Shown here one piece after another: positions 6,958-18,905 of a stretch of 64,000 nt of DNA; the first letter of the stretch is position 1; each line of letters begins with the position of its first letter. Origin of the DNA: Arabidopsis thaliana. Its lineage: Eukaryota > Streptophyta > Magnoliopsida > Brassicales > Brassicaceae. The position numbers were made by a program, and so were the translations under genes. Where the stretch lies: positions 20,591,261 through 20,655,260 of the forward strand of contig NC_003074.8 of NCBI RefSeq assembly GCF_000001735.4. The letters are read 5' to 3'. A model generated the notes under the pieces. That model did no database searches. It saw nothing but the letters and a program-made list of their open reading frames with translations, and was not told the DNA's origin.

Positions 6958-8354
6958 ATGGATTCCATGATCAAAGATGTTGATCCTTCCGTATTGTTAG
7001 CCAATGGCTTTATTCAATCCCACTTCACGAACTTAAATACTTCCGAAGCATTAGCCAATTGCTTTCTCCAATCTTACTTCCTGAATCTAGGAGTCTATCC
7101 CGAGGTAGTTCAGATGATGTGGTATGCCGACGACAGTGTTATGACTAGACCCGGTCCTGATGGTACAATGATGTCTTTTACATCGCCTGAGGTATTGTCA
7201 TTAATCAGATCAAATCTTTCTCATGAGTTTCTGTTTTTAGTTTGATGTTCTGGTTGGGAGTAATTATATTTTATAACAATAATTCTTTTAGTTATATTTT
7301 TAACGTTTTCAAAACGTATAAACTTGAAAAAAGCTGTAAACGATTTATAAGGACAAACAATTTTTTGATGGTGCAGGCAATTCAGGAGCAAATCGTTTCA
7401 TGCGACTATGAAGGTGCTTCGTTTGATGTGATGAGTTTTGCTGCTCAGAGTTGCAATACCAGTTCTGAAGATGGAGCATTTATCATGGTTACTGGTTTCT
7501 TGACTTGTAAAGACAAACAAGTGAGGAGGAGATTTGTTCAATCTTTGTATTTAGCTCGTCGTCAAGATAGGTCTTATGCCATTGTCAATGATTTCCTCCG
7601 CTATATCGATTCAATACCAGCATTACCTTCTGTTCCTGAATCCGGTAAACAGCTGTATAAATTGTGTTTGATATTCAATTTTAGAATAGTAAGTGTTTAG
7701 CTTCATGAGATTACAAAACTTACTAACTTAGTTTTGGTGTGACTATATATATAAGCAGATTTTGCAGCTGGATTTGTCAAGGTTTACTACGAGTTGCCTA
7801 TGCGTGAGGAACTTGGTTTGATGTATGTCAATGAAAGTATTATGAGCAGACCGACTTCGACTTCTGGTAGAACAATGGTCGAGATGCCTGGCCTCGATGT
7901 AAGTTGCAAAAGTTCCTAATTCCAATGTATTTCTAGAGAAATTTTAGTGGAATAAATCTAAGGGGTTAGTTTTTTGGTGCAGGCAATCAACAAGAGGGTC
8001 TCAAATGAGCATAAGAGGGCTTCTAATTTTATATTGAATAGTGTGGATTATCAGATCAGCAGATCCTTTAAAGATAGAATGTTTATCATGGTTTGCGGTT
8101 TCGTGACTCTAGACGACAAAACAGAGAGAAAGTTCTTGCAATTTTTCTATGTGACACGTTGTCACAATGGGTCTTATGTCATCTACAATGACATCCTCCG
8201 TTATGTTGATGTTACCCCTCGAGACACACTTGAAAGCTCGAGCCAGTCCGCTGCAAAACCTAGTACTGATGTCGAGCTTCCTTACTTCATGGTTAAGAAG
8301 GGGAAGCTACTCTCTTATTTTAACAACATAGACACGCAAAATTACCCCCACTAA
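6958..8354 (+). CDS. Two-domain NTF2-like family protein
   Basis: Four exons (6958-7191, 7377-7644, 7759-7898, 7983-8354) join in frame to 337 residues. The protein is two tandem NTF2-like units: residues about 22-150 (FLQSYFLNL, SFTSPEAIQEQI, MVTGFLTCKDK, NDFLRYID) and about 165-295 (FVKVYYELP, MPGLDAINKRV, MVCGFVTLDDK, NDILRYVD). Both units are split by a phase-0 intron at the same point, before the AI-Q/N helix, so the unit was duplicated with its intron. In plants NTF2-like folds usually occur in Ran import factors or G3BP-like RNA-binding proteins; here no RRM follows and the function is unknown. The residues that make NTF2 a RanGDP binder cannot be judged by eye. The promoter stretch 6650-6950 is AT-rich and contains a TA/T run. 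Confidence 0.85.
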
Positions 8355-17040: not shown

Positions 17041-17047
17041 TATAAAT
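17041..17047 (+). promoter_or_regulatory. TATA box of the secreted-peptide gene
   Basis: TATAAAT lies 77 bases upstream of the ATG at 17118 and is followed by a short A-rich leader, the spacing expected for a plant TATA promoter. Confidence 0.6.
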
Positions 17048-17117: not shown

Positions 17118-17580
17118 ATGGCAAAGACAAACTTGCTTCTAGCTGCAACTTTACTTCTGTGCTTCATCGTTATTACTTCCTTTGCTCCGGCCAGATCCGA
17201 ATCTTTACTCACAGGTATTAACTCAATTAGATCGATTTTCACATCTATCTTTTTTTATTTATATATAAAAACATTGAACACACACGTAAGTCTTCAAAAC
17301 AATATTTCAAAGACTAATGATGAACATTAAAACTAAAACATAACAAAGATATATATATATATGTGCATGCCGCTTCCCGTAGATTAGTTAGTACTTAGTA
17401 TAGAATTACACTAATTCTATTATGATTTTTGTTGTATAAAAGGGATTGGAAGTGAAGGGGAAATGTGGCACAGAGGAGTGTATGCTAAAAGGTTCGTTGT
17501 TTGCTCATGTGGATTACACTAGTCCCGGTGACAGACCGCCAAAGAGTTGGGGAAGACCACCCCATGCGCCCCAAATCTAA
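17118..17580 (+). CDS. Secreted peptide precursor, phytosulfokine-like with diverged core
   Basis: Two exons (17118-17214 and 17453-17580) join in phase to 74 residues. Residues 1-26 form a signal peptide (MAKTNLLLAATLLLCFIVIT, cleavage near APARS). The second exon gives GKCGTEECMLKGSLFAHVDY, which follows the conserved pre-peptide block of phytosulfokine precursors (from memory, PSK4 has [21 protein letters not shown]). The YIYTQ pentapeptide is absent: after Asp53-Tyr54 comes TSPGDRPPKSWGRPPHAPQI. DYTSPGDRPPK instead resembles the sulfated RGF/GLV core (RGF1, DYSNPGHHPPRHN). The acidic residue before Tyr fits tyrosylprotein sulfotransferase, and the prolines could be hydroxylated. Using the AG at 17441-17442 instead of 17451-17452 puts exon 2 in another frame that stops after about 22 residues. 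The gene model is fairly sure; bioactivity is inference. Confidence 0.7.
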
Positions 17581-18905
17581 AATAATTGAAATTTTCAATT
17601 TGCTTATGATGATCTTATACTGTGATATGTTACTTATTATAAACCGACTTCATTAATAAAAATCACAATTTTATTTTATTTTGGACCAAAAACTATTTAC
17701 ATATAACAAGTTAACAACAATAAACAACGTACATCATGATTTCTTGGATTATCTGTTAAGTTTGCGATTGAAACCCTTTAGTGGTACGTAGTCAAATGCT
17801 AGAAACTCATTTCTAATAAATAATGTTAGAATCAAATTAGAAGGTACCTATTATCTAAGTAATTAATGATGTGTCCAAAATAAAAGTAGTGTTGATTAAA
17901 CTAAAAAACTCGAGATCTTAAGATGAGTCATCGATTCATGGATCATATCACTTGATAAAATGAATTATAATTGGGTTGTATAATTGCTTGTGAGTTATAA
18001 ACTGAAGGTTGATGATTTATAGATAAGTTTTATACTATGAATTTAATTACAAGAAAGATAAGCCTATTAAAAATAGTACAAACTCGTGATATGGTTTGAT
18101 GTACTCTCACAGATTAAAAAAACAGACAAAGGATGCTAAAATTGGAGAAATCACTGTCTATAAGATACACATATATATTACGGTTTCAATCTTAAATAAA
18201 TTAAAATCCAAAACGTAAATGAAGAACTACCTAAAAAGCCTGTGTTGTTCAAGAATTGAGAAAGCTAAAAAGGAGTATCAGCTTTGTTTCGTAAAGAAAT
18301 GCTTTTAACTTTTCTTAATTCACTAGGATATAAACGCGTAGGTCTATTTTTGCAACTTTTAATAAAATTTTGTAAATCATTGATGGGTTTGGTTAGAGTA
18401 TGTGCTGCTTCTTGGGCCCTGAAAACCCAAAATACTTTTTGTTCCCATTTTTAATAAAATTGCAGAAAAAACTTGGAACAGATGAGGGAGAAAAAAGCTT
18501 GAACTGGTGACACTGAAGACAATTAGACCAAGAACAAATCGTCCTAGTGAATCATTAAGAGAATTAGTCTGAAAGTTTGATATATTATTATAGTCGAAAA
18601 TCCTAAAAATTCTGAAACTCCTAGTTTAGACTCTTAAGACCAGCCTTGCGGTTCTGTTGTCACCCTCAAGTAGTTTCTGTTCTGGTTTGTTCAAGAGCGA
18701 TATTCTAATGAAGATATATAAGACTTTGAAATTGTTTTCACAAGGCGATAAATTACCACTTAACTTCCTTGACCCTTGTTATTAACTGCTTCCAAACATT
18801 GCTCTACGAGACTCTTGATTTACATGTTTATTACATCATATTGGTAAGCATAACATAGACCAATTTGGTTATCGCCAACACCTAAGCTTAGTAGTAGTAA
18901 AAACC
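17581..18905. other. Intergenic, no gene seen
   Basis: Shared 3' flank of the peptide gene (+) and the DUF7722-like gene (-). AT-rich, with no coding frame with conserved features and no clear repeat. Confidence 0.55.

Follow-up and report, generated by a model that had tools for sequence, protein, structure and literature searches.

What does a gene make when it carries the propeptide block of a phytosulfokine (PSK) precursor directly before a peptide that is not PSK? The question is raised by a locus in the window considered here, the whole stretch of 64,000 bases that was analysed (G+C 35.3%). The small protein encoded there appears to be a PSK-like precursor with a different core. Its product contains neither the pentapeptide YIYTQ nor the alpha, gamma, delta and epsilon variants of PSK that are described in passages of PMC10796568, and no hidden YIYTQ was found in the three forward frames of 17509-17620.

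The coordinates, frame and sequence given for this gene in an earlier note are right, and its 74-residue splice model was reproduced, with a junction whose acceptor, GGAAG, is weak-looking (Table 1). Among the GT..AG pairs tested (donors 17118-17259, acceptors 17300-17519), GT 17215 with AG 17451-17452 is the sole pair that leaves exon 1 whole and spares the KCGTEEC stretch. Splicing to another in-frame acceptor, AG 17472-17473, would give 67 residues and lose the first Cys, and a third at 17490 would give 61 and lose EEC. Because GGAAG is weak-looking and in-frame alternatives exist, the exact junction of exons 1 and 2 is provisional. The acceptor at 17472-17473, CACAG, is in frame and better looking than GGAAG, and alternative splicing at this site is possible.

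The frame runs through its 74 codons free of stops and frameshifts, and the start context around the ATG, AAAAAAGAAATGGC, is of plant type. Exon 1 encodes a hydrophobic signal peptide, predicted from hydropathy (11-residue peak 2.98) and not from SignalP. The G+C content shifts sharply at the exon borders, with 0.433 in exon 1 and 0.508 in exon 2 against 0.256 in the intron; the 500-base flanks of the gene stand at 0.256 and 0.254.

Table 1. Features of the candidate gene, whose product of 74 residues is read from 17118-17214 joined to 17453-17580 (positions in the window)
Feature	Position	Strand	Remark
TATA box TATAAAT	17041..17047	+	ends 71 bases upstream of the ATG
Exon 1, coding part, MAKTNLLLAATLLLCFIVITSFAPARSESLLT	17118..17214	+	hydrophobic signal peptide (predicted)
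Intron, 238 bases, GT-AG, phase 1	17215..17452	+	G+C 0.256, acceptor GGAAG
Exon 2: propeptide block, DY core, C-terminal tail	17453..17580	+	stop codon 17578-17580
PSK-precursor-like block TEECMLKGSLFAHVDY	17470..17517	+	profile similarity
RGF-like 13-residue stretch DYTSPGDRPPKSW	17512..17550	+	without terminal Asn
Whole candidate C-terminal peptide DYTSPGDRPPKSWGRPPHAPQI	17512..17577	+	22 residues, one Tyr
Poly(A)-signal-like AATAAAA	17655..17661	+	sequence motif

Fifteen neighbouring frames (14 of the 32 frames of at least 110 aa, and one shorter frame) were scanned with Pfam, and 13 of them matched. The matches before the candidate are, in order, two NTF2-domain frames, an L-type lectin receptor kinase and a PCC-domain (AHL-type) protein; past it come, again in order, DUF7722, RCC1-repeat, GDP-mannose pyrophosphorylase type, MAM33 and amino-acid-kinase frames, and next a mitochondrial carrier, a pyruvate kinase, a PRONE RopGEF and an S1-type protein. 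We take this order to be that of At3g55540 to At3g55672 on Arabidopsis thaliana chromosome 3, which would presumably place the candidate near At3g55560. The two consecutive NTF2-domain frames (7227-7700 and 7962-8354, plus strand) may be tandem domains or belong as exons to a single gene, and the S1-type self-incompatibility protein homologue (PF05938; 62422-62958, plus strand) is another small secreted protein. Just downstream of the candidate lies the DUF7722 frame (PF24847; 18906-19196, minus strand); since At3g55570 has an eggplant counterpart, our guess is that the DUF7722 gene is At3g55570. That number was the only one of At3g55561-55579 found in open-licence main texts, where it is labelled an 'unknown protein' by an array study and appears in a list of eggplant markers.

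The 16 residues that end in the DY pair, TEECMLKGSLFAHVDY, match the PSK propeptide block beyond chance. On a five-row profile of AtPSK1-5, whose sequences were entered by hand and two of which were shortened by one residue by hand for a gapless fit, they score 25.7 bits, and the five themselves score 28.7-45.5 when each is left out in turn. None of 100,000 shuffles of the exon-2 protein reaches this value (best shuffle 14.4), and among the 50,827 stop-free six-frame 16-mers of the window the runner-up scores 9.8. The earlier note had seen a PSK-precursor block in this product and had proposed a profile comparison with PSK; on these figures the similarity is real. All five AtPSK sequences pass the Pfam PSK model with 42-69 bits (cut-off 25), and their lengths agree with Table 1 of PMC11534595. 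With the DY columns removed from the five-row profile the score falls to 17.5 bits and still lies, narrowly, above all 100,000 shuffles (best 17.1), while a profile of the three AtPSK rows that need no hand-made gap gives 27.2 bits, again with 0 of 100,000 shuffles as good. Identity to AtPSK1, 2 and 4 is 7-8 of 16. The AtPSK4 decapeptide of PMC2667306, used alone, is matched as well by 11 of 100,000 shuffles; the same test minus DY, where 1639 of 100,000 are as good, speaks against the PSK reading.

That decapeptide holds the published SBT1.1 site of AtPSK4, to which KGSLFAHVDY aligns gaplessly with 5 of 10 residues identical, the equivalent of the cut falling between Ala and His. According to PMC2667306, Arabidopsis conserves a dibasic pair at this site, together with P3 Leu, P1' His and P3' Asp. 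The candidate keeps P3 Leu, P1' His, P3' Asp, P4 Ser and a basic P6; the second basic residue of the pair is Gly, so half of the pair is kept. Its P2 and P1 differ from AtPSK4, and P2-P4 are the most sensitive positions in the alanine scan of that paper. Because cutting of the AtPSK1, 3 and 6 sites by SBT1.1 is reported there as barely or not detectable, cutting of the candidate by SBT1.1 itself cannot be assumed. A block of the form EEC..basic pair..L..H.DY, with the basic pair half kept, precedes the core in a product that also has a signal peptide by hydropathy, a small size and one intron, and the sequence statistics support a PSK-type scaffold with a non-PSK core.

Other properties set the product apart from PSK precursors. 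It has no match to Pfam PF06404 (PSK) up to E 10 and does not attain the gathering score, a null result to be read with the fact that HMMER filters hide most weak matches. In PMC13074997, PSK precursors are described as markedly acidic and PSY, RGF and CIF precursors as mostly basic; the candidate (pI 8.99, or 7.80 without the first 26 residues) sides with the latter and not with PSK. The Asp at -1 of Tyr, reported as essential for PSK sulfation in PMC10796568, is present, a point in favour of the PSK-type reading. Passages of a 2026 survey of B. napus (PMC12841938) give YIYTQ as present in all 19 PSK genes, 15 of which, as derived from one passage, have one intron and two coding exons, like the candidate. 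A search based on AtPSKs with a check for YIYTQ, as in that survey, would probably not have kept a gene such as this one.

The locus is best rated as a diverged PSK-type gene that would probably make a secreted, possibly sulfated peptide of 13-22 residues. In its fuller form, to which we give about even chances, the best explanation is a real small secreted-peptide gene that would descend from a PSK precursor and in which the hormone segment has given way, by replacement or by drift, to another single-tyrosine, proline-rich peptide. It is favoured because of the intact two-exon gene, the regulatory context, the coding-like composition and the PSK block. If the gene is expressed, the signal peptide would bring the propeptide into the secretory pathway, TPST in the Golgi would sulfate the Tyr of the DY pair, and prolyl hydroxylases might modify the PP pairs. 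A subtilase would then cut in the retained PSK-type site (KGSLFA/HVDY), by analogy with AtPSK4, and trimming would leave a peptide of about 13 to 22 residues whose first residue lies at or beside DY and which would be perceived by a leucine-rich-repeat receptor kinase other than PSKR. The PSK pathway, as outlined in the relevant passages of PMC10796568, likewise consists of secretion, TPST sulfation of a Tyr after Asp, subtilase cutting and a leucine-rich-repeat receptor kinase. Action of the candidate on PSKR is unlikely, because it has one Tyr and another sequence.

The main rival is a decaying copy of a PSK gene, with the scaffold kept by descent, the hormone lost, and a neutral tail without a receptor. 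It would explain the loss of the core about as simply as the best explanation does: YIYTQ is gone together with one of the two basic residues, AtPSK6, with YIYTH, may itself be a pseudogene (PMC11534595), and the Thr that directly follows DY is the remnant expected if a two-codon loss of Ile-Tyr had struck DYIYTQ (leaving DYT-), as judged from the sequence. Against decay stand the 74 codons without a stop or frameshift, the intact start context, signal peptide and poly(A) signal, and a tail strongly G+C-rich compared with the flanks. The 60 bases after DY have a G+C content of 0.60; none of 3317 flank windows of equal length exceeds 0.55, and just 0.26% of all 60-base windows in the 64 kb reach 0.60. 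With a G+C content so far above that of the 3' flank, the tail does not have the appearance of a recent read-through into neighbouring untranslated sequence. Only the intact frame and the tail composition hold this rival back, and we regard it as doubtful, though a serious contender.

A second rival is that the gene encodes a functional RGF/GLV-type ligand acting on RGFR/RGI receptors, by convergence or by exchange of the core. The fit of DYTSPGDRPPK, the core, to RGF is weak to moderate. The earlier note's alignment with RGF1 is correct, with 6 identical and 9 positive positions (identical included) of 13 (PMC11534595). On a profile of the 10 listed 13-residue RGF motifs (RGF4, GLV8 and GLV9, with 15-16 residues, left out) the core scores 11.6 bits over columns 3-11 (11-column version), with 861 of 200,000 shuffled tails as good (p 0.0043), and 6.1 bits over columns 3-13 (13-column version), with 2098 of 200,000 as good (p 0.0105); four comparisons were made and these p values carry no correction for that, and the choice of 11 columns came after the sequence had been seen. 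Arabidopsis RGFs, each left out in turn, score 10.3-28.8 bits over 13 columns and 1.4-23.1 over 11, and five non-Arabidopsis RGF motifs 6.6-30.2 and 2.9-21.2. The 11-column score therefore lies inside the Arabidopsis range and above the 9.5 bits of Marchantia MpRGF1, which is reported to be active with a weaker effect, whereas the 13-column score falls below every Arabidopsis value and below all five of the others. Among the 133 DY/EY 13-mers in the window, that of the candidate is the best on the RGF profile, and its basic precursor accords with what the passages of PMC13074997 report for RGFs.

The spacing DYxxPxxxPP is shared with RGF1, 2, 5, 6 and 10 (half of the 10 listed 13-residue motifs), with K or R as the next residue in RGF1, 2 and 5. 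Of 200,000 shuffles of the tail, which is proline-rich, 3545 (1.8%) place P at 5 and PP at 9-10. The DY with xxPxxxPP is present, with p 0.004-0.018 according to the measure used, uncorrected. All 13 listed Arabidopsis RGF/GLV/CLE18 motifs, however, end in Asn (PMC11534595), while the candidate has W at position 13 and a tail devoid of Asn; according to a review (PMC6749341), it is the last Asn of RGF1 with which the RXR motif of RGFR1 makes contact. The terminal Asn is not absolute in RGF, as one published monocot RGF domain ends in His. The RGF likeness of the core, which the earlier note had proposed, thus stands in part, on the uncorrected p values of about 0.004-0.01 and the first rank among 133, and falters at the missing Asn; it is suggestive only, a lead and not a membership, and a working RGF-type ligand seems to us quite unlikely.

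It is very unlikely that the locus is not a gene, that is, a chance open frame beside a chance signal-peptide-like exon: the acceptor is weak-looking, but the PSK block score, the composition and the gene signals combine against it. Least credible of all is a CIF/TWS1-like ligand of GSO1/GSO2, for although the 22-residue tail ends the protein, lies within the 21-24 residues given for CIF peptides, shares RPP with CIF1 and CIF2 and holds two RPP (587 of 200,000 shuffles, in a test prompted by the sequence), its score on an ungapped profile of CIF1-3 (CIF4 and TWS1 left out for length) is at chance (p 0.38), it lacks the G after DY of 4 of the 5 listed CIF/TWS1 peptides, and it lacks the terminal N or H of all 5. 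PSY membership was also rejected, with a profile score at chance (p 0.32) and a sequence that departs from the published motif DYXXXX[AP]NXXHXP. Of the family comparisons proposed in the earlier note, then, that with PSK gave a positive result and that with RGF the uncorrected values above, while CIF and PSY are at chance, and the CIF resemblance read from the RPP repeat finds no support. Nor is the 'evolutionary bridge between families' of the same note borne out: nearly every plant sulfopeptide listed has DY, and the proline pattern is the one that 1.8% of tail shuffles produce.

A Pfam GLV1-2 match to the signal peptide is sub-threshold (15.3 bits, cut-off 28.1) and was taken as composition. 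A tblastn search for a tandem copy gave no second match in the window better than E 0.8, and no PDB sequence matched the product up to E 10. Pattern searches gave 130 stretches in bacterial/archaeal contigs and 8 in viral ones, none of them a relative, as expected because the candidate is a plant gene. Fragments of the product, searched as strings, were not found in open-licence main texts (as distinct from supplements and figures), 'PSK-like' and similar names had other uses in a sample of open-licence texts, and the candidate is missing from a published list of 34 Arabidopsis sulfopeptide precursors (PMC11534595).

The best explanation, a diverged PSK-type gene, admits a bolder version in which a PSK gene has taken on a new cargo, its scaffold for secretion and cutting delivering a different, tyrosine-sulfated, RGF-like peptide. 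This is speculative, and we think it rather improbable. If it were true, one plant sulfopeptide family could give rise to another when the core is exchanged within a retained scaffold. Beyond the DY pair and TPST, the four known families have little in common. A PSK scaffold with another core in what seems to be a model plant would offer a case of ligand replacement that is easy to test, and such a gene would be missed by YIYTQ searches or by the Pfam PSK model.

Set beside known systems, the candidate resembles the PSK precursors (AtPSK1-7, PF06404) in being a small, predicted secreted precursor with one intron, in the EEC..[KR].[ST]L..H.DY block directly before the tyrosine with Asp at -1, and in the position of its peptide near the C-terminus. 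It differs from them in having one Tyr instead of two, without YIYTQ or a known variant, in its 22-residue proline-rich C-terminus and the loss of the second basic residue, and in being basic, not acidic, and without a Pfam match. Its core shows the DYxxPxxxPP spacing of RGF/GLV/CLEL, a likeness that is suggestive only, but it lacks the terminal Asn, continues for nine more residues past position 13 and has a PSK-like pro-region. With CIF/TWS1 it shares the DY start, a length within 21-24 and the RPP triplets, whereas positional similarity is at chance and neither Asn nor His ends the peptide. With PSY, finally, it shares the DY start and, as in several PSYs, P at 5, but not DYXXXX[AP]NXXHXP.
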